Part shown: positions 18,015-51,666 of the stretch, one piece after another
How positions within the stretch are numbered: position 1 is the first letter of the stretch
How the letters are laid out: every line of letters begins with the position of its first letter
Assembly: GCF_030285665.1 (NCBI RefSeq)
Contig: NZ_CP127295.1
Location: forward strand, 8,928,001-8,992,000
Origin: Amycolatopsis mongoliensis
Lineage (GTDB): Bacteria > Actinomycetota > Actinomycetes > Mycobacteriales > Pseudonocardiaceae
Reading direction: 5' to 3'
Length of the DNA: 64,000 bases
Program-made: the position numbers and the translations under genes
The notes under the pieces: model-generated
What the model was told of the DNA's origin: nothing
Databases searched by the model: none
The model's input: the letters and a program-made list of their open reading frames with translations, nothing else

Positions 18015-18050
18015 GTGCACAAAGTCCCTGCGGGAGAAGGACAAAGACCC
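18015..18050. promoter_or_regulatory. Two DosR-like boxes upstream of the CoA-transferase
   Basis: GTGCACAAAGTCCC (18015-18028) matches GGGCCNAAAGTCCC at 12 of 14 positions counting the N; AAGGACAAAGACCC (18037-18050) matches about 9. Both share CAAAGNCCC and lie 120-155 bp before the gene start. They are candidate binding sites of a DosR/DevR-type regulator. Confidence 0.45.
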
Positions 18051-18170
18051 ACGTCGACGGCGGCCGGCAGGCCCCATGATCATCGCTGCCGGGACCGGGC
18101 GGTTCGGGCATGATCGACCAAGACGACGAACGCGAGGCCGCCGCGAAACGGCACGGCGGCCGAGAACGGG

Positions 18171-19415
18171 GTGCTGATGCGGTTCTTGTCCGAGGCGCAG
18201 CTGGGCGCGATGCTGGCGGGGGTGCCGGGCCCGGCGCCGCGGGTGGTCGTCAGCGGGAACTTCGCGACGCCGAGGCGCGCGCTGGCCATTTTGGACGCCG
18301 CGCTGCCGGAGTACCGGCTGTTCGCCCTGAACGCGCAGGCGGGCGTGCCGGACCGGGAGGGTGTGCTGCTCGAGACCCCCTTCGTGGGGCCGGGGATGCG
18401 GCACCGGGCCGGCCTGCGGTACTTCCCGTGCCGGTTGTCGCTGGTGCCCGAGCTGCTCAAGCAGTCGCTGCCGCCGGATGTCGTCCTGGTGCACACCTCG
18501 CTGCCGGTGGACGGCACGGTGTCGCTGGGGACCGAGGTCAACCTGCTGCCCGCGGCGATCGAGGCCGTCCGCGCCCGTGGCGGCCTGGTGGTGGCGCAGC
18601 TCAACCCGAACATGCCGTTCACCTACGGCGACGGGGTGCTGCCGATCGGCGAGATCGACTACGCGCTGGAGGTCGACGAGCCGCTGCTGTCACCCGAGCC
18701 CCGGCCGCTGGGCGACGCGGCGCGGACCATCGGCGCGAGGGTGGCCGAGCTGGTGCCGGACGGCGCGACGCTGCAGCTCGGGATCGGCGGTGTCCCGGAC
18801 GCGACGCTGGCCGCGCTGACCCGGCGCCGGGGCCTCTCGGTGTGGTCGGAGATGTTCAGCGACGGCGTCCTCGGCCTCGACCGCGCCGGGGCACTGGACC
18901 CGGCCGTCCCGGTGACGGCGTCGTTCGTGTTCGGCAGCGACGAGCTGTACCGGTGGATCGACCGCAACCCCCGCGTCCGGCTGCTGCGCACGGAGAAGAC
19001 CAACGATCCCGCCGTGATCGCCCGCCGGCGCTGTCTCGTCTCGGTGAACAGCGCGCTGGAGGTCGACCTGTTCGCCCAGGCCAACGCCAGCCGGGTGCGC
19101 GGCTCGATCCACTCCGGCTTCGGCGGCCAAACCGACTTCGTGGTCGGGGCGTTGCACTCCCCCGGCGGCCGGGCGGTCATCGCGCTCCCGTCGTGGCACC
19201 CGAAGGCGAACGTGTCGACGGTCGTGCCCCGGCTGGCGGGCCCGGTCACGTCGTTCCAGCACAGCTTCATCGTCAGCGAGCACGGCACCGCGACCATCTG
19301 GGGCAACGACTCGAGCGAGCAGGCCCAGCAGATCGTGGACCGGGTGGCGCACCCGGACGTCCGCGAGGATCTCCGGGCCCAGGGCCGTGAACTGGGGTTC
19401 TCCCTCCGGGGGTGA
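18171..19415 (+). CDS. Acetyl-CoA hydrolase / 4-hydroxybutyrate CoA-transferase family protein
   Basis: 414 residues. Family motifs: AQLNPNMPFTYGDG, the CoA-binding LQLGIGGVPDA (202-212), the catalytic glutamate E227 in WSEMFSDG, and the C-terminal SFQHSFIVSEHGTATIWG. Enzymes of this class move CoA between acetyl-CoA and carboxylates or hydrolyse it, giving acetate in fermentation-like metabolism. A GTG at 18171 and an ATG at 18177 are both possible; neither has a strong Shine-Dalgarno sequence. DosR-like boxes upstream and the flavohemoglobin downstream suggest a low-oxygen role. Confidence 0.83.
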   Translation: MLMRFLSEAQLGAMLAGVPGPAPRVVVSGNFATPRRALAILDAALPEYRLFALNAQAGVPDREGVLLETPFVGPGMRHRAGLRYFPCRLSLVPELLKQSLPPDVVLVHTSLPVDGTVSLGTEVNLLPAAIEAVRARGGLVVAQLNPNMPFTYGDGVLPIGEIDYALEVDEPLLSPEPRPLGDAARTIGARVAELVPDGATLQLGIGGVPDATLAALTRRRGLSVWSEMFSDGVLGLDRAGALDPAVPVTASFVFGSDELYRWIDRNPRVRLLRTEKTNDPAVIARRRCLVSVNSALEVDLFAQANASRVRGSIHSGFGGQTDFVVGALHSPGGRAVIALPSWHPKANVSTVVPRLAGPVTSFQHSFIVSEHGTATIWGNDSSEQAQQIVDRVAHPDVREDLRAQGRELGFSLRG

Positions 19416-19459
19416 CCCGGCTGGGCCCAGAGGTTGGCCCGATCGGCCGAATCCCCTTG

Positions 19460-19483
19460 ATGACCAAGGTCCTCACCTTGGTG
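19460..19483. promoter_or_regulatory. Tandem DosR-like boxes upstream of flavohemoglobin
   Basis: GACC-AA-GGTC (19462-19471) fits the GGGACYWWRGTCCC core at 11 of 14 positions over 19460-19473; CACC-TT-GGTG (19474-19483) is a second adjacent inverted repeat. They lie 108-131 bp before the TTG start. Confidence 0.45.
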
Positions 19484-19590
19484 CCCGAAGATCCCTGGGG
19501 ACCCCCCGCGCGCCCCGGCAGGATCGGGAACGAGACCGGTCGCACCCGCATCGGCGAAGCCCGGTCGTCTTCCTCGAAGAAGGAGAATCC

Positions 19591-20778
19591 TTGCTGTCCC
19601 CAGCATCCGCCGCGGTGGTTCGCGCCACCCTGCCCGTCGTCCGCGCGCACGCCGTGGAGATCACCGGTGAGTTCTACTCGTCGATGTTCGCCGCGCACCC
19701 GGACCTGCTCGACCTGTTCAACCAGGGCAACCAGGCCGACGGCCGGCAGCAGCTCGCCTTGGCGTCGGCCGTGGTCGGCTTCGCCGGGCACCTGCTCGAC
19801 GAGGACGCGGTGCCGTTCGACCGGATCGCCGAGCGGATCGCCCACAAGCACGTGTCGCTCGGCATCAGGGCCGGGCAGTACCCGATCGTCGGCCATCACC
19901 TGCTCACCGCCGTCGGCACCGTCCTCGGCGACGCGGTCACGCCCGAGATCGCCGCGGCGTGGCACGAGGTCTACTGGCTGCTCGCCTGCCGGCTGATCGC
20001 CGCCGAGGCCCGCCTCTACCAGCGCGGCGACCTCGACCCCGAGCACCTCTGGCGCCGCTGGCGGGTGGCCAAGCGCCTCGACGAGGCCGTCGACGCGGTG
20101 TCGTTCACCCTGGTGCCCGACGGCGGCGCGGCCGTTCCGGACTTCGCGCCCGGCCAGTACGTCTCCGTCGCGGTCGACCTGCCCGGCGGGCGTCGCCAGC
20201 TTCGCCAGTACTCGCTCTCCCACGGCCCCGGCCGGGGTTCGCTGCGGATCACCGTGCGCCGGGTCCGCGGCCGCGACGGCGCACCGGACGGCGCGGTGTC
20301 CCACCACCTGCACGACCACGTCACCGAAGACCAGACCCTGCTGCTCGGGCCGCCCGCGGGCGAGACGACGCTCGCCCCCGGCGACGGACCGGTGCTGCTC
20401 GTCAGCGCCGGCATCGGGATCACGCCGATGGCCGCCATGCTGGACCACCTCGCCCGTACGCAGCCGACCCGGCGGATCGTGCTCGCCCACGCCGACCGCT
20501 CGCCCGCCCACCACGCGCTGCGCCGCGAATGTGCCCAGACCGCGATGGGCCTGGCCGAGGTCGACGAACTGTACTGGTACGAGCACGACCACGACGACCG
20601 TTCACGCCCCGGCCGCATGGACGTCGACGCGCTGCCGCTGTCCCCGGGCACGACGGCCCACCTGTGCGGCCCGCTGCCGTTCATGCACGGGATCCGCGCC
20701 GGGCTGATCCGCCGGGGCCTGCCCGCCGACCGCATCCGCTACGAGGTGTTCGGTCCGGGGATGCTCGACCGGGACTGA
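19591..20778 (+). CDS. hmp: Flavohemoglobin, nitric oxide dioxygenase
   Basis: 395 residues with the three modules of Hmp. The globin domain (1-140) has the proximal His at H85 (IAHKHVSL). The FAD domain carries RQYSLSHGPG. The NAD domain has VSAGIGITPMAAML and ends AHLCGPLPFMHGI with YEVFGPG. It oxidises NO to nitrate with O2 and NADH in the cytoplasm. The start is TTG at 19591, five bases after AGGAG. The family is induced by NO and hypoxia; here DosR-like inverted repeats occupy the upstream region. Confidence 0.92.
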   Translation: MLSPASAAVVRATLPVVRAHAVEITGEFYSSMFAAHPDLLDLFNQGNQADGRQQLALASAVVGFAGHLLDEDAVPFDRIAERIAHKHVSLGIRAGQYPIVGHHLLTAVGTVLGDAVTPEIAAAWHEVYWLLACRLIAAEARLYQRGDLDPEHLWRRWRVAKRLDEAVDAVSFTLVPDGGAAVPDFAPGQYVSVAVDLPGGRRQLRQYSLSHGPGRGSLRITVRRVRGRDGAPDGAVSHHLHDHVTEDQTLLLGPPAGETTLAPGDGPVLLVSAGIGITPMAAMLDHLARTQPTRRIVLAHADRSPAHHALRRECAQTAMGLAEVDELYWYEHDHDDRSRPGRMDVDALPLSPGTTAHLCGPLPFMHGIRAGLIRRGLPADRIRYEVFGPGMLDRD

Positions 20779-20835
20779 CCGGAGCCGGTACGGGTCGGGC
20801 GATGTCTTGAAGCTGGCTGGGAGTCGTCCTGTAGG

Positions 20836-21360
20836 TCATCGGAGCCAAAGCACGATGGCGGCGATGGTGGGTTCGGGCTGGCAGTAGGCGACGCGTTTGG
20901 CGTTGCGAGTGGCCAGGTCACGGAACTGTCAGAGCCGGTTGAAGCGGCGTTCGACCACGTTGCGCTGCTTGTAGACCTCGACATCGAAGGCTGGTGGTCG
21001 CCCGCTGCGGGAGCTTTTGGCGACGCGGCGGGCGGTCTGGTCATCGCGTTCCGGGCTGAGAAACCTGACCCGCCGGTCCCGCATCGCCGCCCTGGACGAG
21101 GAATGGGAATACGCCTTGTCCGCGACCACCGTCTCAGGCCGGCAGTGTGGCGGGCCTGCTCCAATCCGAGCCGCGCTGATGCCGCCCAGCAACGGAACCA
21201 GCTGCGGATTGTCCCCCGCTTGGCCCGGGGTGGAAGGCGAGGGCTTCGGTCTGGTCGCTGCATCCCCTTTTTCCGGGCGCCAGCCGAGTGCCGATGAGCC
21301 CGGACCACGCTGGAATCGGGCCGAGACGTTCCACTCGATGTCGCCGACGGCGTCGTCTTG
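20836..21360 (-). pseudogene. Decayed IS5-type transposase
   Basis: Pieces of an IS5-family transposase are recognisable in three frames. DSSVVRAHRHSAGARKKG, the region around the catalytic Asp, is in one frame; VVADKAYSHSSSRAAMRDRR and PPAFDVEVYKQRNVVERRFNRL are in another; a TGA at 20929-20931 splits FNRL from QFRDLATRNAKRVAY, and the frame ends at 20836. The N-terminal third is missing, replaced by the next IS. The element is inactive. Confidence 0.8.
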
Positions 21361-22246: not shown

Positions 22247-23712
22247 TTAACCTGTTCGGCGGGGTCGTGGGTTGCTTGACTTGGTGTTCTTGCCGCGTTT
22301 GGGTTTCTGCTTGTTTGTGCTGGTGACGGTGTGGACGTCGTGACGTGCTGCGGGCTGGTGGTTAGGCAGTCCGGCGGGGCGTCCGGGGCCGGGCCGGGAG
22401 AGTTTCGGGACACCGGCCGGACAGGCGAGTTGTGGACGTAGGTTCCGAAATCCTCGACGGATCCTGGCTGGGGTGAGCCGCTGAGCGGGTCGGGGTTTCT
22501 CCCAGGGGCGGCGCAGGTCGGTGGTGAGGTCGCGGGCGAGCCGGAGTTGGGTGTAGGCGGTGAGAAGTAGCCAGGTCCAGCGGTCGGCCGCCTCGGGTGA
22601 GCGAAGTTTCGGGGTGGTCCAGCCGAGGGTTTGCTTGAGCATGCGGAAGGTGTGCTCGATGTCGAGTCGGCGCAGGAACGCCTGCCAGGCCAGATCGACC
22701 TCGGCGTGGTCGAGACCGGTGCGGGAGTGCCAGAGCCACACGGGTTTCGGGATCGCGCCGGAGGGCAGGCGCTCGACCTGCAGTCGGATCACGGTGCCCT
22801 CGATGACTGGAAGGGCACCGTCGTGGCCGGCCCAGGCGATGCGGTGGGTCAGCCGTGGGTGCAGCCGGTCCCAGGCCCGGACCAGCGCGGGACCGAGAGC
22901 CGGGTCGTGGTGTCGATGGTGACATCCGGCTCGCCCCAGGTGTTCGGGTCACCGAAGGCGAACTCGTCGCCGTGGCGGCGGGGCCTGCCCAACGTGCCGG
23001 GCGGCTGCGGCGGGACCGGGCGGTGCAGGACCCGATCGGTGCGCATCCGCACCAGCACGGTGATCGGAAGATCGGCCAGCACGTGGGCCAGGCGGGGACC
23101 GTCGTAGCCGGCGTCGGCGACCAGCAAGATGTCCGGGTCTCCCGGCCGCCAGTGCCCGGCCGCGATCAGGCGGCCCACCACGCCGCGGATCTGCCGAGCA
23201 GTCACGCTCGCGGCGTTGTCTCCGGGCGTGAGCCGGACCGCATCCAGCGGCGCAGTCCACGAATGGCGTCCTGTTTCCAGGGCGACGACGACGGAGTAGG
23301 GCCAGCCCGGCACCATTATGTGCTGGTCCTTGCCGCGGCCGTAGGTGTGACACAGGATCCGCTGCGAGCAGGTGTGTGCTTCCGGACGCAGCCAGCAGGT
23401 CACATCCACTGCCAGTACCAGCCGCTCGTCCGCGGCCCGCGGCAGCGGCACCGCGGTCAGTGCGGTGCGTAGCCGATCGATGTCGACACGTCCCCGGGCT
23501 AGCGCGGCATAGCCGCTGCCATACCCGCGGCGGTGCTCACCAGCCAGCGACAACTCCGCGACCGACCGCACCGGCCCGTCCGCGCACAACATCGCCTCGG
23601 TCAGCTCGAACAACGCATCCGCCCGACGGGTCAGACAGCGGTAGAACTCCTGCCGCAACGCCGAGAGCTCCCCGGCCACGCCGACGTCGCCGGCATGATG
23701 CACACTGATCAA
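22247..23712 (-). pseudogene. Frameshifted transposase of the 1.6-kb IS
   Basis: The upstream frame (23712 to about 22888) begins ISVHHAGDVGVAGELSALRQ and includes RLVLAVDVTCWLRPEA and DILLVADAGYDGPRLAHVLA. The reading then continues in another frame with GPALVRAWDRLHPRLTHR, GTVIRLQVERLPSGA, LRRLDIEHTFRMLKQTLGWT and PRPGRPAGLPNH-like tail. An extra base near 22888, in the TTTR/LGPAL region, splits the gene; no slippery run is evident, so it looks like an inactivating mutation. The family is a large actinobacterial transposase group of about 480 residues. Confidence 0.75.
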
Positions 23713-25354: not shown

Positions 25355-25760
25355 ACCCCGGCGAAGCCGTATCTTGAAAAGCCGGGAAGCCCGAGATTCG
25401 ATACAACGCCTGGCCCGCCGCCCGAAAAGGGGTTCAAGCCTGATGCGTCTCCGGCAGGCCGCCTCCGCGGTGACACTATAGTGCGCACCCATCACCAGCG
25501 GTGGAATGAAACCGCCCAGGCCGCCCGCGGTGCCGACCCTGTTCCCCGGGGTCGGCAACGCGACGAGTGATCGTTCGCGGGGCCTGGCCGAGCGGACAAG
25601 ACGCGCCTCCTCCGGGCGGTCCGGCTCGGTGATCCCGCCTCGCCGCGACACCACCCTGGTGTCAGCCGCAGGCTGTCCGGCTTCGAGGAAAGCGCCGCAC
25701 CGATCACCAGCCGAACGTCACGGCTCGCAGTGACCTTCGTCCTCCGGCCGATCGCCCGGA
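25355..25760. other. Non-coding stretch downstream of pflA
   Basis: About 405 bp without a credible gene. It includes the palindrome CACTATAGTG near 25475 and a small hairpin GACACCA-CCC-TGGTGTC (25644-25660), about 100 bp beyond the pflA stop, which might end that transcript. Confidence 0.4.
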
Positions 25761-26504
25761 TCAGGTCGTGGGCAGGTGATGCCGGGCGAACTGCTCGCGA
25801 ACCCGCCGGACCAGATCCGCATCGGGAGCCGGGACGTGGGCGAGGGGGAACGGCAGGCCGAGCGCGGTGTACTTGGCCGCACCGAGCTTGTGGAACGGCA
25901 GCACGTCGACGCGTTCCACAGTGGACAGGGTGCTGACGAACGACGCGATGCCTTCGACGTCGTCCGGGTCGTCGGTGAGGCCGGGCACCAGCACGAACCG
26001 CACCCACATCGCCTTGCCCAGCTCGGACAGCCGGCGGGCGAAGGCCAGGGTCGGTGTGCGGTCGACGCCGGTGAGCCGGCGGTAGCGGCCGGGGTCCCAG
26101 GACTTGATGTCCAGCAACACGAGGTCGGTGTCCGCGAGCAGCCCGTCGGTGGCCCTTCCCCCGAGGTAGCCGGACGTGTCGAGCGCGGTGTGCAGGCCGA
26201 GCGCCTTGGCCCGGTGGAGCAGGTCGCCCACGAACGCGGGCTGCAGCAGCGGTTCCCCGCCGCTGACCGTGAGACCACCCCCGGCGACCTCGATGAACCG
26301 GCGGTACCGGCTCATCTCGGCGACGACGTCGTCGACGGAGACCCGCTTCCCGTCACGCATGTGCCAGGTGTCGGGGTTCTGGCAGTACAGGCAGCGCAGC
26401 GGGCAGCCGCTGGTGAACACCACGAACCGGGTGCCGGGGCCGTCCACCCCGGTGGAGAGGTCCCAGGAGTGGACGGACCCGGCGCGGGTGAGGGTGGTGG
26501 TCAC
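25761..26504 (-). CDS. pflA: Pyruvate formate-lyase-activating enzyme
   Basis: 247 residues, radical SAM. The cluster motif CPLRCLYC (C34, C38, C41) follows FVVFTSG; the SAM-binding GGxE-type sequence is [28 protein letters not shown] and [11 protein letters not shown] are also typical of PflA. It uses SAM to place a glycyl radical on PflB. The GTG start overlaps the pflB stop by four bases, so the pair is translationally coupled. The enzyme is oxygen-sensitive, which points to anaerobic or microaerobic use. Confidence 0.92.
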
Positions 26505-28759
26505 AGCGATCCGTGGAACGTCCGGTTGACCACGTCGCGCTGCTGTTCCGGGGTGAGCCGCACGAAGTTCACGGCGTAGCCGGACACGCGGATGGTCAGC
26601 TGCGGGTACTTCCCGGGGTGCGCCATCGCGTCGAGCAGCGTCTCCCGGTCCAGCACGTTGGCGTTGAGGTGGAACCCGCCCGCGTCGGCGTAGCCGTCCA
26701 AGATGCCGCAGAGGTTGGTGATGCGTTCCTCCCTCGTGCGGCCGAGGCCGGCCGGGACGACGGTCGCGGTGAGCGAGATCCCGTCCTGGGCCTGGTCGTA
26801 GGGCAGCTTGGCCACCGACAGCGCCGCGGCCACCAGGCCGTGGCTGTCCCGGCCGTTCATCGGGTTGGCGCCGGGGGCGAACGGCTCGCCGGCGCGGCGG
26901 CCGTCGGGGGTGTTGCCGGTGTGCTTGCCGTACACCACGTTCGAGGTGATCGTCAGCACCGACTGGGTGTGGACCGCGCCGCGGTAGGCCGGGTAGCGCC
27001 GGACCTTGGCCATGAAGTCCTCGACCAGCTCGACGGCGATGGCGTCGGCGCGGTCGTCGTTGTTGCCGTAGCGCGGGTAGTCGCCCTCGACCGCGTAGTC
27101 GACCGCGAGCCCGGTCTCGTCCCGGATCACCCGGACGCGGGCGTGCTTCACCGCGGACAGGCTGTCGGCGACGACCGAGAGCCCGGCGATGCCACACCCC
27201 AGCAGCCGCTGCACCGGGTGGTCGTGCAGGGCCATCTCGAGCCGCTCGTAGGCGTACTTGTCGTGCATGTAGTGGATGATGTTGAGCGCGTCCACGTAGG
27301 TCTTGGCGAGCCAGCCGGTCACCCGGTCGAGCGCGGCCCGCAGCTGCGCGTAGTCCAGGTACTCCCCCGACAGCGGCGGGAACGCGGGCGCGACCTGCTC
27401 ACCGGTCATTTCGTCGCGGCCGCCGTTGACCGCGTACAGCAGTGCCTTGGCCAGGTTCACCCGGGCACCGAAGAACTGCATCTGCTTGCCCACCCGCATC
27501 GCCGACACGCAGCAGGCGATCGCGGTGTCGTCGCCGAACCGGGGCCGGAGCAGGTCGTCGCTCTCGTACTGGATGGAGCTGGTGTCGATCGACACCTGGG
27601 CGCAGAACCGCTTGAACCCGGCCGGCAACCGCGGCGACCACAGCACCGTCAGGTTGGGCTCCGGGGCGGGGCCGAGGTTGTAGAGGGTCTGCAGGAACCG
27701 GAAGCTGGTCTTCGTGACCAGCGGCCGGCCGTCCTCGCCGATGCCGCCGATCGCCTCGGTCACCCAGGTCGGGTCGCCGGAGAACAGCTCGTCGTAGGCC
27801 GGGGTGCGCAGGAAGCGCACGATCCGCAGCTTGATCACCAGGTCGTCGACCAGCTCCTGGGCGTCCACTTCGGACAGCAGGCCGGCGTCGACGTCCCGCT
27901 GCAGGTAGACGTCGAGGAAGGTCGACACCCGGCCCAGCGACATCGCGGCGCCGTTCTGCTCCTTGGTCGCGGCGAGGTAGGCGTAGTAGAGCCACTGCAC
28001 CGCCTCCCGGGCGGTCGCGGCCGGGCGCGAGATGTCGTCACCGTAGGCCGCGGCCATTTCCCGCAGCTCTTCGAGCGCCCGGATCTGCTCGGCCAGTTCC
28101 TCACGGTCCCGGATGACCGCTTCGGTCGAGAGCACCGCGTCCAGCGCGGCCCGGTCGGCCCGCTTGGCCTCGATCAGCCGGTCCACGCCGTACAGCGGGA
28201 CCCGGCGGTAGTCGCCGATGATCCGCCCGCGCCCGTAGGCGTCCGGCAGCCCGGTGATGATCCCCGCCCGCCGGGCCGCCAGGATCTCGGCGGTGTAGGC
28301 GTCGAACACCCCGTCGTTGTGCGTCTTCCGGTACCGGGTGAAGATCTCCTTCACCGCCGGGTCCAGTTGGTAGCCGTAGGCCGTGAGCCCCGCCTCGACC
28401 ATGCGCAGGCCGCCGGCCGGCATGATCGCGCGCTTGAGCGGCGCGTCGGTCTGCAGGCCGACGATCAGCTCCCGGTCCCGGTCGAGGTACCCCGGCGCGT
28501 GCGCGGTGATCGACGACGGCGTGCGGGTGTCGACGTCGAGGATCCCGCGGCGGCGCTCCTCGGCGAACAGCCCGGTCAGCTTCGCCCACAACGCCTTCGT
28601 GCGCTCGGTCGGTCCGGCCAGGAACTCCGCGCCACCTTCGTAGGGTGTGTAGTTGTCCTGCACGAACCCCCGGACGTCGATGTTCCCGCGCCAGTCCTGG
28701 CCGTGGAACCCGGACCACGCGTCGGTCCGGGTCGTCGGACCGATCACCGGTGCCGCCAT
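26501..28759 (-). CDS. pflB: Pyruvate formate-lyase (formate C-acetyltransferase)
   Basis: 752 residues, normal length for PflB. The adjacent active-site cysteines C416-C417 lie in IACCVSAM and the glycyl-radical residue G727 in RVSGYAVNF. The enzyme converts pyruvate and CoA to acetyl-CoA and formate without oxygen. The start is the ATG at 28759, after a purine-rich AAGGCAGG. A DosR-like box lies 88-101 bp upstream. PPDK is encoded next upstream in the same direction, 122 bp away. A glycyl-radical enzyme is unexpected in a typically aerobic actinomycete and supports a hypoxic survival programme. Confidence 0.95.
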
Positions 28760-28846
28760 CACGCACCTGCCTTCCCTGTTCGGTGTCCTGCCACCACAAT
28801 GCTTCGTCCGATCGGGACGCCACAGGGAAAGCCGGTTGAAAAACCC

Positions 28847-28860
28847 GGGCCTTTGGTCCT
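28847..28860. promoter_or_regulatory. DosR-like box upstream of pflB
   Basis: GGGCCTTTGGTCCT has half-sites GGGCC and GGTCC around a short T-rich centre; as AGGACCAAAGGCCC it matches the DosR core at about 11 of 14. It lies between the ppdK stop and pflB. Confidence 0.5.
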
Positions 28861-28881
28861 CCGCCGCCGGCCCTTGTGCTC

Positions 28882-31563: not shown

Positions 31564-31737
31564 CGTCATCTCCTGTCAGGTCCGAAGCGGAACGGCGCGG
31601 TCGGGGCCTCGCGTCCATCCACCGCGTGTGCGCCGCGTCCCGCGCGGCCGGGCCGAGCCGCGCCGATCCGGTCCGCCTCGGCCGTGCCGACCCGGATCTG
31701 CTCGCCCCGATCATTTCCGCTCCGCGCAGGTCCGCCC

Positions 31738-31774
31738 AGGACCGCAGGTCACCTGCCCGAAGGACCAAGGTCGC
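31738..31774. promoter_or_regulatory. Tandem DosR-like boxes upstream of ppdK
   Basis: AGGACCAAGGTCGC (31761-31774) matches GGGACCAAGGTCCC at 12 of 14. A related AGGACC-GCA-GGTCACC lies at 31738-31753. The shared core GACC-AA-GGTC is also found upstream of the flavohemoglobin gene. Confidence 0.5.
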
Positions 31775-31870
31775 CGACCTCGAGCGGCAGCCGGTCCAGG
31801 ACGTCGACCGCGGAGAGCGTCCCCTCGGTCCCCTTCCCGCCCTTCGGTTTTTCGATTGATTCGACAGCGG

Positions 31871-42353: not shown

Positions 42354-42704
42354 TCAGCGCACCTTCTTCGCGCAGGCGATGCAGATCCGCGTCGCCGGGA
42401 GGGCGGCCAGCCGCTCTTCGGCGATGGGACCGCCACAGCGTTCGCAGGTTTCCCAGACACCGGCACGCACCCGCTCGGCGGCGCGGTCGAGGTTCACGAG
42501 GTCGTCCTGGGCCTGGCGCAGGAGCGCCTGGACCTGCGCCCGTTCGAAGGCGATCGTGACGCCTTCCGGGTCGTGCTCGTCGTCGTTGCTGGTGAACTCC
42601 GAGGCCTCGACGATCCCGTCCCGCTGCCGCGCGAGCGAGGCGGCCAGCCGCGCAGTCTCGGCGCGGGCCCGCTCGATCAGCTCGATCGCGGCGCGCTCAT
42701 CCAT
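42354..42704 (-). CDS. DksA/TraR-type zinc-finger protein
   Basis: 116 residues. An N-terminal coiled-coil (about 1-85) ends in a C4 zinc finger: CERCGGPIAEERLAALPATRICIAC. These proteins enter the RNA polymerase secondary channel and adjust transcription during starvation. The ATG at 42704 starts the coiled coil; the frame is open further up but has no better start. A strong DosR-like box lies 54-67 bp upstream, placing the gene in the putative low-oxygen set. Confidence 0.83.
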   Translation of the reverse strand: MDERAAIELIERARAETARLAASLARQRDGIVEASEFTSNDDEHDPEGVTIAFERAQVQALLRQAQDDLVNLDRAAERVRAGVWETCERCGGPIAEERLAALPATRICIACAKKVR

Positions 42705-42757
42705 GGGTGCGATCCCGTCTCGACGGCAGCCTGCGCCAGGCCGGCGCAGGGGACGAA

Positions 42758-42771
42758 GAGCCGAAAGTCCC
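42758..42771 (-). promoter_or_regulatory. Strong DosR-like box upstream of the DksA-type gene
   Basis: GAGCCGAAAGTCCC matches GGGCCNAAAGTCCC at 13 of 14 positions. The same GAGCCGAAAGTCC string occurs at 45446. This is the best match in the window. Confidence 0.6.
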
Positions 42772-42778
42772 CACCACG

Positions 42779-42796
42779 GCCCTCCGATCGGAGGGC
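42779..42796. promoter_or_regulatory. 18-bp perfect palindrome
   Basis: GCCCTCCGATCGGAGGGC is a perfect palindrome 7 bp beyond the DosR-like box. It is an operator candidate, or a hairpin in a divergent transcript. Confidence 0.45.
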
Positions 42797-44961: not shown

Positions 44962-45228
44962 TCAGCACAGGCAGGTGGGGTCGTCGGCGCAGGGGTGCGC
45001 GGCGACCAGGACCGGATCGGCCGCGGGGTGTTCCCGCCGGTGGCCGGCGGCACAGACGTTGCAGCGCAGGGTGCGACCGGCAGGCTCACCGGGGACCAGG
45101 CCGGCCGGGTGGCCGGGGGTGTGGCTGATCCAGGCGTGCTGGAGACAGACGGCCGCGCCGCAGTCGTGGCACACCACCACCGCCGGGGTGTCCTTCTGGT
45201 TCAGGACCAGGCATTGCAGGCAGTTCAT
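44962..45228 (-). CDS. DUF2180 small zinc-binding protein
   Basis: 88 residues, rich in Cys and His. MNCLQCLVLNQKDTPAVVVC followed by HDCGAAVCLQHAW forms a B-box-like treble-clef as in DUF2180 proteins of archaea and actinobacteria; another pair, RCNVCAAGH, and a terminal PCADDPTCLC follow. The ATG at 45228 has GAAAGGGG upstream. The function is unknown. DosR-like sites lie 165 and 218 bp upstream. Confidence 0.78.
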   Translation of the reverse strand: MNCLQCLVLNQKDTPAVVVCHDCGAAVCLQHAWISHTPGHPAGLVPGEPAGRTLRCNVCAAGHRREHPAADPVLVAAHPCADDPTCLC

Positions 45229-45392
45229 GAGGAAACCCCTTTCTCCTCGTGGGTGGTCGTGCGGCGGGAGGCCCGAGCCGGAACCGGAGCCGGCGGGTGG
45301 TCGATGGTCATCCGGCCTCCTTCCCGCGAGCAGGCGCGGCCGCTCAGTACCCGGCCATAACCGACAATGCGCCCAGCCCAGGGGGCACACCA
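45229..45392. other. Leader region of the DUF2180 gene
   Basis: 164 bp without a credible gene; open frames here are Arg/Gly/Pro-rich shadows. It may hold the 5' leader of the DUF2180 transcript. Confidence 0.35.
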
Positions 45393-45459
45393 TGGTCGTT
45401 GGTCCTGTCGCGTGCGTCTTTGGTCTCCAACGGATCCGGGCGGAAGAGCCGAAAGTCCT
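45393..45459. promoter_or_regulatory. DosR-like boxes between DUF2180 and a membrane protein gene
   Basis: GAGCCGAAAGTCCT (45446-45459) matches GGGCCNAAAGTCCC at 12 of 14. On the minus strand AGGACCAACGACCA (45406-45393) is weaker, about 10 of 14 against GGGACCAAGGTCCC. They could serve both divergent genes. Confidence 0.5.
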
Positions 45460-45540
45460 CGGAAGCCGTTCCGCGCGAAGGCCTTCGATCCCTGTGCCGG
45501 GCACTGCCGCGGGAGGATCCTCCTGCTCGGAGGTATGCGC

Positions 45541-46014
45541 ATGGCGGGTACGGAACGGGTGCTCAGGTACGTTGCGTTCGGCGTGCTGATGGCGTTCGCC
45601 GCGTTCGGCGCGCTGTTCATCGTCGGCGAGACCATGCTCGACCCGGGCGGAGCGCCGGGCGTCCTGCTCACACTGTCGTGGTCGGTCCCCATGGCCGTCC
45701 TGACGTTCTGCGCGGCCCGGTGGCCGCGAGCGGCGGCCGGGGTGCTCACGGTCGTCGCGGTGGCGGTGGCGCTGTTCGTCGTGGCGGATGCGCTGTTCGG
45801 CTTCAGGGCCGGCCCCGCCGCCTTCATCGCCGGGTTCGCGGTCGCCGTGCCGCTCGGTGTTCTCGGCCTGCGCCGGCCGGTGCGCGCGGGATGGCTGCTG
45901 CTGGCCGTGGGCACGCTGCTGACAGCGTCCGGCGCCGTCACCGTGGGCATTCCGGTGCTGGTCGGCGGCGGGATTTTCCTGCTCGCGGCCGCATCGGGGA
46001 GACCTCGAGGGTGA
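45541..46014 (+). CDS. Small polytopic membrane protein, unrecognised
   Basis: 157 residues with about five predicted helices (near 12-30, 40-58, 63-85, 90-107 and 115-150). The start is the ATG at 45541, seven bases from CGGAGG; an ATG at 45535 is too close to it. No family motif is seen. A DosR-like box lies about 82-95 bp upstream, so it may be part of the stress set. It is followed by a 390-bp gap and an ABC exporter. Confidence 0.6.
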   Translation: MAGTERVLRYVAFGVLMAFAAFGALFIVGETMLDPGGAPGVLLTLSWSVPMAVLTFCAARWPRAAAGVLTVVAVAVALFVVADALFGFRAGPAAFIAGFAVAVPLGVLGLRRPVRAGWLLLAVGTLLTASGAVTVGIPVLVGGGIFLLAAASGRPRG

Positions 46015-46403
46015 CAGTGCGAGTCTCGGTCGCCGACGTGCCGGCGTTCCGGCCGGCCGCCAGCACCTGACCGAACAGCCCGCCGGGGTCGGCCGCGCAG
46101 GCGTTGGACGCCCGGGGCGAAGGCCTCACGCCCGCCCGGATGCACCGCGCCGACGACCTCGACGCGCTGCGCTCGGCCCCCACCCCCGCGCGGGCTGCGC
46201 CTGCTGCCCCGCACGCCCCTGTACTCAGGCACGCGACCGCGAGACCCTCGTCGCCCAGCAGTTCCACCCCGCACTTCGGCGGCGGCAGGCCGCCCGCCGA
46301 GGAGGAAACCGGGGACGTAGGTCACCCGAACCGAGGACCTCCGCCCTCGCGTGCGGGCCGCAGTCCTCTACGGGATCGGCGTCCGCCCGGACATCCTGGG
46401 CCG
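46015..46403. other. Gap upstream of the ABC exporter
   Basis: 389 bp. An in-frame upstream extension of the ATPase and two minus-strand frames are open, but are low-complexity and lack ribosome binding sites. A short stretch near 46328-46420 could encode VRAAVLYGIGVRPDILGRWL in another frame, possibly a gene remnant. Nothing firm. Confidence 0.35.
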
Positions 46404-47315
46404 ATGGCTGGCGAACCGGCGATCCAGGTTGAAGGTCTCACCAAGGCATACGGGCGGACCACGGCTCTGCGCGAAGTGAGTTTCGCCCTCGATCCGGGCG
46501 AGGTGTTCGGCTACCTGGGCCCCAACGGGGCCGGGAAGACGACCACGCTGCGCCTGTTGATGGGCATGATCCGCCCCACCTCCGGAGCCGCGCGGGTGCT
46601 CGGCATGGACTCGTGGCGGGAGGCGGTGGCGGTGCACCGGGTCGTCGGCTACGTGCCGGGTGAGACGAGGCTGTACGACCGCCTGACCGGCCGCCAGCAC
46701 GTGGCCTACTTCGGGCACCTCCGCGGCGACCCGGGCGAGAAACGGGCGACCGTACTGGCCGGCCGGCTCGACCTCGACCTGGACCGGCCCACGCGGTCGC
46801 TGTCGAAGGGCAACCGGCAGAAGCTGGCCGTGGTGCTGGCCCTGATGTCGGAGCCCCGCGTCCTGATCCTCGACGAACCGAGCGGTGGCCTGGATCCCCT
46901 GGTGCAACACGAGTTCCACGCCCTGCTGCGCGAACACACGACCACGGGTGGCAGCGTGCTGTTCTCCTCGCACGTGCTCGCCGAGGTGCAGCGGGTGGCC
47001 GACCGGATCGGGGTGCTGCGCGCCGGTCGCCTGGTCACGGTGGACCGCGTCGACGACCTGCGGGCGAAATCGCTGCACCACATCCGCGCCCGGTTCGCCG
47101 AAGACGTCCCGGCGACCACGTTCGCCGCGGTGCCGGACGTGCGCGACGTCGCGGTCGCCGGCCGCGTACTCACCTGCAGTGCGCCCGAACTCGCCCTCGA
47201 CGCGCTCGTCAAGGAGATCGCCCGGCACCGGCTGCTGGACTTCGAGTGCGTCGAGGCCGACCTCGAAGAGACGTTCCTGACCTACTACGGATCCGGTGCC
47301 GACGATGCTGCGTGA
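46404..47315 (+). CDS. ABC-2 exporter ATP-binding protein
   Basis: 303 residues. Walker A is GPNGAGKTTT, the signature region is SLSKGNRQKLAVVLAL, and Walker B is VLILDEPSGGLDPL, with the switch His in LFSSHVLAEVQ. The C-terminal 80 residues are the regulatory tail of CcmA/DRA-type exporters. The ATG at 46404 begins right at the ABC domain. It overlaps the start of the permease gene. Such pairs export drugs, lipids or act in stress resistance; the substrate is unknown. Confidence 0.87.
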   Translation: MAGEPAIQVEGLTKAYGRTTALREVSFALDPGEVFGYLGPNGAGKTTTLRLLMGMIRPTSGAARVLGMDSWREAVAVHRVVGYVPGETRLYDRLTGRQHVAYFGHLRGDPGEKRATVLAGRLDLDLDRPTRSLSKGNRQKLAVVLALMSEPRVLILDEPSGGLDPLVQHEFHALLREHTTTGGSVLFSSHVLAEVQRVADRIGVLRAGRLVTVDRVDDLRAKSLHHIRARFAEDVPATTFAAVPDVRDVAVAGRVLTCSAPELALDALVKEIARHRLLDFECVEADLEETFLTYYGSGADDAA

Positions 47316-48105
47316 CATCCTGCTCAAGACGCTGCACGACCAGCGACGCGGCCTGCTCGCGTGGTCGGTGAGCCTGCTCCTGCTCGTGGCCATGTACGTG
47401 GCACTCTGGCCCAGCATCCGCGACCAGCCGACCATGGGCCAGTTCCTGCAGAACATGCCCGAAGCCATGCGCGCGCTGTTCGCCGCGTCCGGCGCGGACA
47501 TGTCCACGCCGACCGGCTACGTGCAGGTCGAACTGCTCTCGTTCATGGGGCCGATGCTGTTGCTGATCTACGCGATCACCACGGGCGCGGCGGGCATCGC
47601 GGGCGAGGAGGACCGGCACACCCTCGAACTGCTCATGGCGAACCCGGTCAGCCGGACCCGGGTCGTGCTGGAGAAGTTCGGCGCTCTCGTCGTGGGCACG
47701 CTGCTGCTCGCCCTGGTCGCCGGGCTGGCCCTGGTGCTCGAAGGCCGTCTCGCTGGGCTCACGCTGCCCGCCGGCAACGTCGCGGCCGCGATGCTCCACA
47801 TGGCGTTGCTGGCCCTCGTCTTCGGCGCGCTCGCCGCCGCGATCGGCGGCCTGACCGGGCACGGCGGCGCCAGCCGCGCGATCCCGGCGGTGGTCGCCGT
47901 CGTCGCGTACGTGCTCAACGGCCTGGCTCCGGTGGTGTCCTGGCTGGAACCCGCCCGGAAGATCTCCCCGTTCTTCCAGTACATCGGGCACGACCCGCTC
48001 CGGAACGGCGTCTCCGCGCCCGCGGTCCTGGTCGCCCTGCTCACCACCGTCGTGCTCGCCGCCGTGGCCGTCGTGGGGTTCCGCCGCCGCGACCTGGCCG
48101 CGTGA
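47305..48105 (+). CDS. ABC-2 type exporter permease
   Basis: 266 residues, six predicted helices, with a soluble loop after helix 1 (PTMGQFLQNMPEAMRALFA) and the conserved EEDRHTLELLMANPVSRTRVVLEK segment of ABC-2 permeases. The ATG at 47305 lies inside the end of the ATPase gene; a GTG at 47296 is an alternative. It works with the preceding ATPase. Confidence 0.85.
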   Translation: MLRDILLKTLHDQRRGLLAWSVSLLLLVAMYVALWPSIRDQPTMGQFLQNMPEAMRALFAASGADMSTPTGYVQVELLSFMGPMLLLIYAITTGAAGIAGEEDRHTLELLMANPVSRTRVVLEKFGALVVGTLLLALVAGLALVLEGRLAGLTLPAGNVAAAMLHMALLALVFGALAAAIGGLTGHGGASRAIPAVVAVVAYVLNGLAPVVSWLEPARKISPFFQYIGHDPLRNGVSAPAVLVALLTTVVLAAVAVVGFRRRDLAA

Positions 48106-48135: not shown

Positions 48136-49572
48136 TCAGCCGGTGTCGCCCAGGTAGGTGATCTCCTGGATCCGGTCCTGGTAGCCGCCCGGGCCGGGCG
48201 CGAGGTGGACCAGCCAGACCAGCACGGCCGCACTCGCCGGACCGGGTGGCACCGGGATCCTGGTCGTGCCCGATGCCAGCGTCGCGGTCGCCAGCGGGAC
48301 GGTATCGGCAAGGGCGGCCGGTGCCGAGGCTGCGACGCGGATCTCCACCACCGATCCGGCGCTGGGTGAGGAGACGTCCACCTCGCGCACCCGCAGCGGA
48401 CGCCCGAAGCCGGCCAGCAGCCCGACCCCCGGGGCGAACTTCGGGAACTGCTCCCGGTACTGGTCGGTGGGCCACGCGGTCGCCGGATCACCGTCGACGG
48501 CCAGCCCGGCCTCGCGCGGGTGGTCGGGGCTTCCGGTCACGCTGTACACGGTCACGCTGTCGGGCCGGACCGGCGCGGGAGCGGCCGGCGTCGTCGAAGA
48601 CGGGGCCGGCGGTGGGGCGGGACGCGGCCGGACCGCCGTCGGCGCCGGCGAAGACGCGGGCTCCGGGGCTCCGGCCGGGGCACGGTCGAACAGCCCGCTC
48701 ACCTGCGTCACCCCACCGGCGACGAGCACCACGACCGCGATGGCCAGGATCGTGGTGAGCATCGAGTACCGGGTGCGGTGACCGGCGCGCACGGGCCGGG
48801 TCGGGTCGGCAGACCGGGCCGGCACGCGGCGGGCAGCGGGCGGTTCGGCGCCGAGAGCACCGGACTCGAAGTCCGCCATCGCCTCCAGCAGCGGCGTGGC
48901 CGTGTGGATCTCGCCCAGCCCGGGGCAGCCGAGGCTCAACTGCACCGCGAGCCGCAACGGCTCCGGAACGGCGTCGGGCAGGCATTCGGCCGCGCCGGGA
49001 GCCGGCCACTGGCCGACGATCAGCGAGTACAGCAGCGCGCCCAGGCCGAAGACGTCCTCCCGCTGCGTCGCGGTCGGCGCCGGCCCGGGGAAGGCCAGCA
49101 CCAGCGCGCCGTCCGGCCCGACCTTGGTCCGTTGTGGACAGTCGATTCCGGCGAGCAGGCCGCGGTGGTGGAGGTGGTCGACCGCGGTGGCCAACGGGAG
49201 CAGCATCCGGCAGGCCCGCTCGGGCGGGACCGGAGCGCGTCGCACGGCCTCGAGCACCTCCGGGCCGGGCGTCCACGCGGCGACGACCAGGCCCACCGCC
49301 CCGCCGCCGGGCTCCTCGTCCGGACCGAGAACGTCGAGTACGGGTGCCACGGCCGGTTCCGCGGCCGCCGCGGTCAGCCGGGCGTGCTCCAGCACGCGTG
49401 CACCTTCGCCGAAGGGGTGGCCGTCGGGGCCGGCGGTGAGCACGGTGACCGCGACGTCCCGCGCGTCCGCTGCGTCGTGGGCCAACCAGAACTCGGCACC
49501 GGCACGGGTGGCACCACACCGGCTCGACAGGTGGTAGCGACCGTCGGCGAGAGAGGTACCCGTGACCAGCAT
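48136..49572 (-). CDS. Membrane pseudokinase with extracytoplasmic discoidin-like domain
   Basis: 478 residues. The N-terminal kinase-like lobe (about 10-250) keeps shape motifs (LADGRYHLSSRCG, LPLATAVDHLHHRGLLAGI, EDVFGLGALLYSLIVGQWP) but lacks HRD and DFG; GIDCPQRTKVGPDGALVLA takes their place, so it should not phosphorylate. One helix (MLTTILAIAVVVLVAGGV) leads to a Pro/Ala linker and an extracytoplasmic beta-domain (GLAVDGDPATAWPTDQYREQ, VREVDVSSPSAGSVVEIRV). This resembles the pseudokinase part of mycobacterial MviN (Rv3910) and its FhaA partner system. The ATG at 49572 is followed by the kinase lobe; the Shine-Dalgarno sequence is poorly spaced. Confidence 0.75.
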   Translation of the reverse strand: MLVTGTSLADGRYHLSSRCGATRAGAEFWLAHDAADARDVAVTVLTAGPDGHPFGEGARVLEHARLTAAAAEPAVAPVLDVLGPDEEPGGGAVGLVVAAWTPGPEVLEAVRRAPVPPERACRMLLPLATAVDHLHHRGLLAGIDCPQRTKVGPDGALVLAFPGPAPTATQREDVFGLGALLYSLIVGQWPAPGAAECLPDAVPEPLRLAVQLSLGCPGLGEIHTATPLLEAMADFESGALGAEPPAARRVPARSADPTRPVRAGHRTRYSMLTTILAIAVVVLVAGGVTQVSGLFDRAPAGAPEPASSPAPTAVRPRPAPPPAPSSTTPAAPAPVRPDSVTVYSVTGSPDHPREAGLAVDGDPATAWPTDQYREQFPKFAPGVGLLAGFGRPLRVREVDVSSPSAGSVVEIRVAASAPAALADTVPLATATLASGTTRIPVPPGPASAAVLVWLVHLAPGPGGYQDRIQEITYLGDTG

Positions 49573-49608
49573 CTCCCCAGTGCACCCGGGCCACGGAGCT
49601 TCCCACAA

Positions 49609-49622
49609 GAGCACAAAGTCTT
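49609..49622. promoter_or_regulatory. Weak DosR-like box near the pseudokinase start
   Basis: GAGCACAAAGTCTT matches GGGCCNAAAGTCCC at about 10 of 14. It lies 37 bp from the pseudokinase ATG and about 130 bp from the hibernation-factor start. Confidence 0.3.
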
Positions 49623-49669
49623 CGGTGGCAACGCTTGTGCCCTGCACAGGGCGGAAGTGCCGCGCACAG

Positions 49670-49683
49670 GTGTCCTTCGGCCC
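49670..49683. promoter_or_regulatory. DosR-like box upstream of the hibernation factor
   Basis: The minus strand reads GGGCCGAAGGACAC, about 11 of 14 against GGGCCNAAAGTCCC. It is 68-81 bp before the GTG start, a usual place for an activator site. Confidence 0.45.
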
Positions 49684-49696
49684 TTTCAGCCGACCT

Positions 49697-49731
49697 GGGA
49701 TCCGTCGTACCCAGGAGGTACGACGGATCCC
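49697..49731 (+). promoter_or_regulatory. Perfect 15-bp hairpin in the hibernation-factor leader
   Basis: GGGATCCGTCGTACC (49697-49711) pairs with GGTACGACGGATCCC (49717-49731); the loop is CAGGA. It ends 5 nt before the ribosome binding site AAAGGA (49737-49742). It has no T tract. It may stabilise the mRNA, bind a factor, or end read-through. Confidence 0.65.
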
Positions 49732-49750
49732 CACCGAAAGGATGGCAGCA

Positions 49751-50554
49751 GTGACTCCTCCCCGGACCTCCAGCGCCGTCACCGTCGAAGTGAGCACCGA
49801 CGGACGCGAACTGTCCCACGCACCCGACTACGCCCGCCGCAAGATCGGCGCCCTGCTCCACCTCGCCCACGGTCCCGTGCTCTCCGCGCACGTCCGGCTG
49901 ACCCGCCACCCCGATCCCGCCGTGCCCTACCCGGTCACAGCGCACGCCGACATCGACGTCGACGGCCGGCTCGTGCACGCCCACGCCGACGGGGAAAACT
50001 CCACCGAAGCGATCGACCGGCTCGAGGACCGGCTGGCACACCGGCTGGAACGCGCGGCCGAACACTGGGAAGCCCGCCGTGGCCGCATGCCCGCCACCGA
50101 ACCGCACGAGTGGCGGCACCAGTCCGAACCCGCCCGCCACGACAGCTGGTACCCGCGACCGGAAGCAGACCGCGAAACCATCCCCCACTTCTCGTACACC
50201 CCGCACCCCTGCACCGTCGACGAAGCCGCCGTCGACCTCGGCCGGCTCGGTCACGAATTCCAGCTGTTCACCGAAGCCGGCACCGGCCGCGACGCCGTCC
50301 TCTACCGCGCCGGCGCCACCGGATTCCGGCTGGCCCTGCTCACCCCGCCCGCGGCAGGCGAACTGGCCCGGTTCCGGCTCCCCCTGACGATCAGCGCACA
50401 GCCGGCACCGCTGCTGTCCACCGCCGAGGCGATCGTCCGGCTCAACGACCTCGGACTGCCGTTCCTGTTCCACACCGACGCCGAACACGGCCGCGGCGCC
50501 GTGCTCTACCACCGCTACGACGGCCACTACGGGCTCATCGTCCCCGCGGAATGA
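49751..50554 (+). CDS. Ribosome hibernation factor, RafH-like (long HPF with two C-terminal domains)
   Basis: 267 residues. The N-terminal S30AE/HPF domain (about 8-110) contains VTVEVSTDGRELSHAPDYAR and ADGENSTEAIDRLEDRLAHRLERA. Two C-terminal S30AE-C-like modules follow: VDEAAVDLGRLGHEFQLFTE with VLYRAG, and STAEAIVRLNDLGLPFLFHT with VLYHRYDG. Standard long HPF has one such module; the doubled form is like mycobacterial RafH, a DosR-regulated factor that silences ribosomes in hypoxia. AAAGGA (49737-49742) sets the GTG at 49751; an ATG at 49742 is too close. Confidence 0.82.
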   Translation: MTPPRTSSAVTVEVSTDGRELSHAPDYARRKIGALLHLAHGPVLSAHVRLTRHPDPAVPYPVTAHADIDVDGRLVHAHADGENSTEAIDRLEDRLAHRLERAAEHWEARRGRMPATEPHEWRHQSEPARHDSWYPRPEADRETIPHFSYTPHPCTVDEAAVDLGRLGHEFQLFTEAGTGRDAVLYRAGATGFRLALLTPPAAGELARFRLPLTISAQPAPLLSTAEAIVRLNDLGLPFLFHTDAEHGRGAVLYHRYDGHYGLIVPAE

Positions 50555-50556
50555 CA

Positions 50557-50587
50557 GCGGCCGAGCCGGGTCGCCGGGCTCGGCCGC
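50557..50587. terminator. Terminator between convergent genes
   Basis: GCGGCCGAGCC (50557-50567) pairs with GGCTCGGCCGC (50577-50587), loop of 9 nt, just after the hibernation-factor stop and before the stop of the convergent USP gene. Confidence 0.7.
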
Positions 50588-50619
50588 GCCGCGCTCCGCC
50601 CGCTCTCTTCAGGCGGGCT

Positions 50620-51519
50620 TCACGGCCGGGCCGGGGGGACGACGGCGACAGGGCAGGTCGCATGGTGGATCAGCGCCTGGCTGGTCGAGCCCAGCAGCAG
50701 GCCGCGGAAGCCGCCCCGGCCGCGAGATCCGACCACGACGAGCTGGGCCGTGTGCGCGTGGCCCAGCAAGGTGCGCGCGGGCCCGTCGGTGGCGATCTCC
50801 AGCTGGACCGGCACATCGGGATACCGGCCCCGGAACGGAGTGAGCCGCTCCTCCAGCAACCGCAACTGCTCGTCCCGGACCTGTCCCCAGTTCGTCGCCA
50901 GCGAGGACTCCCAGGCGATGGCGATGGCCTGGTCCATCCAGGTGTGCACGGCCAGCAGCGGGACACCGCGGGTGGCGGCGGCCTGGAACGCGAACGGGAT
51001 TGCCGCCGCGCCGGCCGGGGACTCGTCCACGCCGACCACCACCGGGCCGTCCTGCGGCGCTCCGGTCGCAGCATCGGCCTCGCGGACGACCACGACCGGG
51101 CAGTGCCCGTGGGAAGCCACCGCCACCGCGACCGAGCCGACCAGCAGGCCGCTGAACCCACCCAGGCCGCGTGAGCCGAGCACCAGCAGTTCCGCCGAGG
51201 TCGACCGGCCGATCAGGTGCTCGGCGGCCCAGCCGTTGGTCAGTTCCGTGCTGACCCGGACCTCCGGTGCGGCCTCCTTGGCCGCGTCCCGGGCCGCGGC
51301 GAGCCAGGCCCGCCCTTCCTCCACCAGCACGTACTTGTAGGCGCCCAGCGCCCCCGCGAACGGCACGGCCACCGGGACCAGGGCACACACGTGCACGACC
51401 ACCAGGGGCAGGTCACGCCGGACGGCTTCGCGCGCGGCCCAGCACACCGCCTGGGTGGCCGAGGTGGAGCCGTCCACGCCCACCACGACCGGCCGGGTCA
51501 CCGTCACCTCTGTCGTCAC
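50620..51519 (-). CDS. Tandem universal stress protein (UspA x2)
   Basis: 299 residues, two UspA domains (about 8-148 and 158-295). ATP-binding motifs: LGSRGLGGFSGLLVGSVA in domain 1 and VGSRGRGGFRGLLLGSTS in domain 2; both domains start with VVVGVDGS / VVVGVDES. The start is GTG 51519 after GGGGGTGGGA. It is convergent with the hibernation factor, and a DosR-like box lies 134-147 bp upstream. It is the second double-USP of the window. Confidence 0.9.
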   Translation of the reverse strand: MTTEVTVTRPVVVGVDGSTSATQAVCWAAREAVRRDLPLVVVHVCALVPVAVPFAGALGAYKYVLVEEGRAWLAAARDAAKEAAPEVRVSTELTNGWAAEHLIGRSTSAELLVLGSRGLGGFSGLLVGSVAVAVASHGHCPVVVVREADAATGAPQDGPVVVGVDESPAGAAAIPFAFQAAATRGVPLLAVHTWMDQAIAIAWESSLATNWGQVRDEQLRLLEERLTPFRGRYPDVPVQLEIATDGPARTLLGHAHTAQLVVVGSRGRGGFRGLLLGSTSQALIHHATCPVAVVPPARP

Positions 51520-51652
51520 ATCCCACCCCCGCGGTCGCCGGGGTGGTCCACGGCGACGAGTCGGCTCCTCGCGTGGCCGTCGTGCCCGCGATCAGGCGTC
51601 ACCCTGCCCGGTTCGGTCCCCGGCCGACGAGAGCCGTCCTGCTCATGCGGAG

Positions 51653-51666
51653 AGGACTTAGTTCCC
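51653..51666. promoter_or_regulatory. DosR-like box upstream of the second USP
   Basis: AGGACTTAGTTCCC matches GGGACTWWAGTCCC at about 11 of 14 positions. It is the only such site in the 440-bp divergent gap between the USP and the monooxygenase gene. Confidence 0.45.

Follow-up and report, generated by a model that had tools for sequence, protein, structure and literature searches.

The closest described systems to the locus presented here are the DosR/DevR-DosS/DosT regulon of Mycobacterium, whose box consensus is a GGGAC-type palindrome, and the OsdR/OsdK regulon of Streptomyces coelicolor and S. lividans, which is built on the same regulator family. We know of no pyruvate formate-lyase (PFL), PFL activase or pyruvate phosphate dikinase (PPDK) in the mycobacterial regulon. 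A report available in part places the ribosome hibernation factor RafH under DosR in mycobacteria (PMC10799931). For Streptomyces, the accessible parts of two further reports list PPDK, universal stress proteins (USPs), nitrate reductase and a DksA/TraR protein among the predicted OsdR targets of S. coelicolor (PMC5069765), and PPDK together with a putative PFL among the OsdR-correlated genes of S. lividans, where the PFL activase is tabulated as a putative pseudogene fragment (PMC6302529). A DosR-type system is already known from both genera, and so is PFL within it. Among the papers searched, a single one mentions both Amycolatopsis and DosR, and its title points to M. smegmatis. Here we describe a window of Amycolatopsis mongoliensis DNA, that is, a whole stretch of 64,000 nucleotides (8928001-8992000 of the single 10,811,244-base contig NZ_CP127295.1; 71% GC), which, judged from its sequence, very probably holds an accessory portion of a low-oxygen regulon of the DosR/DevR (OsdR) type in Amycolatopsis. 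The initial annotation had proposed a DosR-like hypoxia regulon from eight 14-bp boxes in this window, and at the sequence level this proposal is now supported by box enrichment and by the regulator and sensor genes. Positions of window features are counted from the first base of the window, all others along the contig.

To score the boxes, a 16-bp palindromic matrix was trained by expectation maximization on 60 upstream regions of the island at 8.55-8.71 Mb, where universal stress genes cluster (8.57-8.66 Mb); no window data were used, and the training region is at least 218 kb distant from the window. Three starts, including one from the OsdR consensus printed for Streptomyces, led to the same 16-bp palindrome, with a consensus of about RGGGACCWWGGTCCCY. 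Genes were modelled with a GC-frame gene finder, so that gene starts are approximate and the gene set is not complete, and the matrix scans covered approximately 1 Mb of the 10.8-Mb genome. As control we used 19 arbitrary 20-kb stretches (76,560 bp noncoding); four other stretches picked for USP genes (740, 6165, 610, and 7565 kb) and three adjoining ones (760, 6145, and 6185 kb) were kept out of it. The USP-chosen stretch at 7565 kb contains no noncoding site of at least 8 bits.

All eight boxes named in the initial annotation were recovered in place, with scores of 10.8-16.4 bits; the 16-mers of the matrix start one base ahead of the earlier 14-mers. In the noncoding DNA of the stretch at 17.9-52 kb, whose limits were set by these very sites and are therefore favourable to it, 9 sites of at least 12 bits were found in 9953 bp (0.904 per kb), as compared with none in 6200 bp of the remainder of the window, none in 24,000 bp of 120 kb of flanks, and 1 in the noncoding control DNA (0.013 per kb). 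Even over the whole window (9 in 16,153 bp noncoding) the density is still approximately 40 times that of the control, while coding DNA shows a site density near background in the same sets. Counted by gaps, a site of at least 11 bits is present in 8 of the 12 upstream gaps at 17.9-52 kb versus 1 of 139 in the controls (Fisher p 8e-10), in none of 48 in the flanks, and in 2 of 8 in the remaining window, one of these two presumably being the gap in front of the CoA-transferase gene, which starts just beyond the cut. Convergent gaps carry such a site in 0 of 3 cases in the window stretch and in 1 of 31 in the controls. The box signal is local and lies upstream of genes. Box density upstream of arbitrary other genes, which the initial annotation had named as a possible source of refutation if equal, is not equal, and the scan against background favours its view.

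None of 300 column-permuted matrices reached the noncoding count of the whole window at 10, 11, 12 or 13 bits, and 1 of 300 did so at 8 bits. The regulon reading is favoured because a matrix learned elsewhere in the genome predicts the window sites and permuted matrices fail to do so. A de novo motif search with 150 random starts in 15 window upstream regions (about 15-52 kb) returned a GGAC...GTCC palindrome that correlates with the island matrix at 0.91, and three control samples yielded other words. Among pairs of boxes less than 90 bp apart, a spacing of 22 occurs three times and the others are scattered; the pairs are few for an analysis of helical phasing.

The pair of DosR and DosS that the initial annotation had proposed to look for elsewhere in the genome is present. 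A dosR response regulator gene is located at 8606663-8607301, approximately 320 kb from the window, and its product matches DevR of M. tuberculosis (3c3w) over residues 1-209, gapless through the DNA-binding end (E 1e-94, 319 bits). The kinase at 8603735 has the GAF structures of DevS/DosT as its best matches (best E 9e-65), and those at 8613279 and 748717 match them at 5e-46 and 2e-42; all three keep the HPPM motif, the histidine of which we take to be a haem ligand. A 17.9-bit box at 8607390, 97 bp upstream of dosR, is common to dosR and the cytochrome bd gene on the other side of the gap. Three further DosR-like regulators (780540, 7479073, and 2195219) show 69, 55, and 55% identity, each with a HisKA_3 kinase close by. 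Many boxes lie in the island at 8.55-8.71 Mb, to which dosR itself belongs, and boxes are also frequent at about 748-764 kb (where a nitrate reductase gene is located), at 6.166-6.180 Mb, and at 4.726-4.744 Mb. The DevR-like regulator, the DevS/DosT-type GAF kinases, the GGGAC-type palindrome, and the presence of RafH and USPs among the boxed genes all resemble the Mycobacterium regulon. In contrast to it, there are four DosR-like regulators here, the boxed genes are spread over several distant islands, and PFL with its activase and PPDK are added.

The gene content of the window is of the regulon type, with USPs, a hibernation factor and genes of low-oxygen metabolism. The identities given in the initial annotation held for the CoA-transferase family gene, the flavohemoglobin-like gene, pflB, pflA, ppdK, and the DksA/TraR, RafH and USP genes, while the DUF2180-like protein (44962..45228, minus strand) scores 20.8 bits in Pfam, slightly below the cut-off of 22.2. 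The CoA-transferase and the flavohemoglobin are assigned at family level: the former (acetyl-CoA hydrolase/CoA-transferase family; 18171..19415, plus strand) is above the cut-off of PF13336 and below those of NCBIfam, and the latter (19615..20778, plus strand) has globin, FAD and NAD domains and reaches 344 bits with NF009805 (cut-off 432). Their boxes lie approximately 149 bp (18014..18029, 16.4 bits) and 148 bp (19459..19474, 14.1 bits) upstream.

On one strand follow, in the order of transcription, ppdK, pflB, and pflA. The ppdK gene (28882..31569, minus strand; TIGR01828 1233 bits, cut-off 843) is preceded by a box at 31760..31775 (10.8 bits, approximately 199 bp upstream). In the gap between ppdK and pflB, a box of 11.9 bits (28846..28861) lies approximately 107 bp upstream of pflB (26501..28747, minus strand; TIGR01255 1153 bits, cut-off 994), which carries the glycyl radical domain, is paired with the activase gene and has no second PFL-family match beside it in the genome. 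Unlike in S. lividans, as far as the available part of that report goes, the reading frame of pflA (25761..26504, minus strand; TIGR02493 304.5 bits, cut-off 231.75) is open here. Just past its stop lies a strong box of 15.8 bits (25729..25744) that the initial annotation had not named, and a DUF222/HNH gene (23983-25212) and a DDE_5 transposase gene (22849..23712, minus strand) are located between the flavohemoglobin gene and pflA.

The gene of the DksA/TraR-type C4 zinc-finger protein (42354..42704, minus strand) has a 14.6-bit box approximately 61 bp upstream (42757..42772) and a second, newly found one of 11.1 bits at 42791. Between the divergent genes of the DUF2180-like protein and of a small protein without Pfam or NCBIfam match (45559..46014, plus strand; the membrane protein of the initial annotation) lies a box of 13.8 bits (45445..45460), near which the scan added boxes at 45392 (10.8 bits) and 45297 (10.1 bits). 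Also new is a 15.0-bit box at 46311..46326, approximately 157 bp upstream of an ABC transporter (46476..48105, plus strand) that consists of an ATPase (46476-47315) and an ABC-2 permease (47305-48105).

The rafH gene (49790..50554, plus strand) encodes a full-length match to RafH of M. smegmatis (8whx; E 3.2e-89, residues 2-254), a dual-domain hibernation-promoting factor, with two C-terminal S30AE-type stretches. RafH was not found in the available parts of the OsdR literature. Two boxes, one known (49669..49684, 13.1 bits, approximately 113 bp upstream of rafH) and one added here (49608..49623, 12.1 bits), lie between rafH and a divergent gene (48136..49485, minus strand). This neighbour, unlike that of rafH in M. 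smegmatis, encodes a hypothetical, distantly kinase-like protein: neither it nor the longer frame 48136-49797 has a Pfam family, and the former has no NCBIfam family either, several of its relatives in a protein search are named protein kinase, and the named relatives with full coverage come from Amycolatopsis, Prauserella or Pseudonocardiaceae. One window protein has its closest named relative in Amycolatopsis lexingtonensis (76% identity). A gene for a USP with two Usp stretches (50620..51507, minus strand) has a box of 15.9 bits approximately 153 bp upstream (51652..51667). Another USP gene with two Usp stretches (7258..8082, plus strand) is preceded at approximately 80 bp by a weaker box of 11.0 bits (7169..7184), likewise absent from the initial annotation.

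We infer that DosS/DosT-type GAF kinases, the nearest of which are encoded approximately 320 kb away, would use bound haem to detect loss of oxygen or NO (nitric oxide) and phosphorylate a DosR response regulator. DosR would then bind to the 16-bp palindromes, which lie some 60-200 bp in front of the window genes, and activate these genes. Under these conditions, PflB with PflA would split pyruvate without oxygen, PPDK would recycle phosphoenolpyruvate (PEP), and the CoA-transferase may move CoA in acetate or succinate fermentation. The flavohemoglobin would remove NO, RafH would put ribosomes to sleep, the DksA/TraR protein may adjust transcription, and the USPs may buffer stress.

To see how these modules are distributed, 60 genomes were searched (our own, 35 of the same genus, and 24 of the same order). 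Relatives of DosR (E <=1e-60) occur in all 35 same-genus genomes, in six of them only as the class with approximately 55% identity. RafH (E <=1e-30) was found in 7 of the 35 congeners and in 1 of the 24 genomes of the order, and a box of at least 9.5 bits lies within approximately 200 bp upstream of rafH in 6 of the 9 loci, our own included (L136-L144); in L144 a DosR-type gene (57% identity) follows rafH. PFL (E <=1e-200) was found in none of the 35 same-genus genomes and in 2 of the 24 same-order ones, where one of the two genes has a 13.5-bit box in front. When five congeners were compared for synteny, the two ends of the window matched several scattered places among the matches listed.

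The pflB comparison rested on the best-scoring 80 loci among the matches listed from named genomes, 35 of them actinobacterial as judged by title. The best site upstream of pflB reaches at least 11 bits in 11 of these 35 as against 3 of the 45 other loci, which are a weak control as they include many low-GC genomes. Tested against dinucleotide shuffles, the upstream regions of 17 of the 35 actinobacterial loci were significant (p<0.05) with the island matrix; when the matrix was built on the printed S. coelicolor OsdR sites, 11 of 35 were. Relatives of both DosR and DosS lie within a flank of at most 10 kb of pflB in 6 of 35 loci (L057, L060, L061, L062, L080, and L085). Since PFL accompanies DosR and DosS in these loci and yet is found in none of the 35 congeners, the PFL module is, in our reading, an accessory unit that may circulate among actinobacteria within DosR islands; its putative import perhaps brought it into the genome already wired.

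Several observations weigh against a DosR regulon in the window. The loose consensus GGGACYNNNGTCCC (at most 2 mismatches) is rarer in the window than in shuffled sequence (70 versus a mean of 107), and genome-wide a strict consensus occurs 17 times versus 19 in a reversed control and a second strict pattern 9 versus 13 times. None of these 17 and 9 places is inside the window, although 6 of 17 and 4 of 9 lie within the islands at 740-780 kb, 6.166-6.187 Mb or 8.55-8.71 Mb. Hence the consensus of the initial annotation alone would not prove the boxes, and it is because of the result with the loose consensus that the matrix was learned elsewhere in the genome. Five strict-hit stretches outside the islands carry 6, 4, 2, 4, and 3 noncoding sites of at least 11 bits, and in part these sites adjoin genes that have no obvious connection to low oxygen, a GH32 glycosidase gene for example; the stretches were chosen for a strict-consensus hit and are not a fair sample. 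The score of the de novo motif (45.9) is only moderately above those of the control samples (34.8, 41.4, and 33.1), which were shorter (2.8-3.7 kb versus 7.0 kb), so that the weight of this result rests on the identity of the motif and not on its score. Within the window, the box at 25729 has no clear target, its nearest downstream start being that of the DUF222/HNH gene approximately 520 bp off. In other genomes, 3 of the 9 rafH loci (L141-L143) have no box close upstream, two of them with a USP-like gene just upstream of rafH; of the two PFL genes found in the order, the second lacks a box of at least 9 bits in front; 18 of the 35 pflB loci fail the shuffle test; and the pflB boxes look weaker against random stretches of their own loci than against shuffles.

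The Streptomyces comparison and the position of the regulator also count here. The OsdR box of Streptomyces differs, its centre being AGGGCCGATCGGCCCT, and the window sites obtain low scores (-9.9 to 9.5 bits) with a matrix built on the printed OsdR sites, so that the window box is not of the Streptomyces form. The nearest DosR is encoded 320 kb from the window, whose targets are not clustered near the regulator, in a genome with four DosR-like regulators. This distance is not disqualifying, since in S. coelicolor the printed OsdR sites are scattered widely through the gene order (PMC5069765, Table 1, as far as available).

The number of regulators leads to the alternative that the boxes are real and are read by another protein than the DosR next to cytochrome bd, either one of the paralogues at 780540, 7479073 or 2195219 or some other regulator of the LuxR/NarL type. 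The second DosR-like regulator, at 69% identity, indeed lies with a HisKA_3 kinase near the nitrate reductase gene, where there are more boxes. However, the matrix stems from the island around DosR at 8606663, which has one of the best boxes in the promoter of its own gene, whereas 16-kb stretches around 7479073 and 2195219 contain no noncoding site of at least 11 bits and that around 780540 contains one; we regard control by another regulator as unlikely. It is quite improbable that the boxes were imported together with their genes and are no longer used. The finding of PFL in none of the 35 congeners sampled, the failure to find RafH in 28 of 35, and the nearby transposase gene would fit such an origin, but the sites are strong, they stand in two thirds of the upstream gaps of the site stretch (8/12), they fit the matrix of the host better than that of Streptomyces, and pflB, pflA, ppdK, and rafH have open reading frames.

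Matches to the loose consensus are common in the window DNA, as would be expected if the boxes were chance palindromes of GC-rich sequence. Unless the control stretches are unrepresentative, the matrix scans speak against this, with the excess over control gaps, the failure of permuted matrices at 10-13 bits, and the near-background density in coding DNA, and we consider chance scarcely credible as an explanation. A DosR/DevR-type regulon is the favoured explanation of the window boxes.

Outside the window, a V/A-type ATPase operon is located in the DosR island at 8689176-8697360 (L022/L023). Five of its subunits (I, c-ring, A, B, and D) score above the Pfam cut-offs and two (C and F) below; three more genes, among them the first two, lack a match and are assigned to the operon because of their position. 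Its first genes are preceded by boxes of 14.1, 15.1, and 15.4 bits (8689019, 8689081, and 8689675), and the first two of these boxes also face a divergent P-type ATPase gene. The A subunit (E <=1e-100) was found in one of the 35 congeners and in one of the 24 genomes of the order. Among 560 plasmid records with a match, mostly distant, two Streptomyces plasmids were examined. The first carries a related operon among annotated USP and CBS genes, with no 11-bit box in front. In the second, the operon lies near genes that by our own comparison are USP-, CBS-, PPDK- and hydrogenase-like, and the gap that separates it from a divergent CBS-like gene contains a 13.0-bit box. Among the titles listed in literature searches on V-ATPase, none dealt with a DosR-linked V/A-ATPase operon, which is no proof of novelty. 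Separately, the 20-kb stretch at 4726264-4743548 (L160), chosen for strict hits, has six noncoding boxes of at least 11 bits beside a metallo-beta-lactamase plus rhodanese, a rhodanese, a class V aminotransferase, and TauE genes, and a link of the regulon to sulfide or persulfide is possible.

What is less expected than the regulon itself is the uneven, accessory nature of its window members and the V/A-type ATPase operon outside the window. We tentatively suggest, as a possibility that we hold to be somewhat less than even, that in actinomycetes the DosR box acts as a portable plug, with which the modules of ppdK-pflBA, RafH, and the V/A-ATPase may move between distant genera behind a promoter that DosR can read. 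If this is true, an aerobe would gain a fermentation and ATP-economy programme in one transfer, and a V/A-type ATPase under DosR would be a new physiological element. The results extend the dormancy regulon of mycobacteria and Streptomyces to Amycolatopsis and suggest that it here reaches PFL fermentation, PEP recycling, and ribosome hibernation via accessory islands of uneven distribution. For studies of DosR-controlled anoxic survival outside the mycobacteria, a soil-type actinomycete that has the complete set would be convenient.

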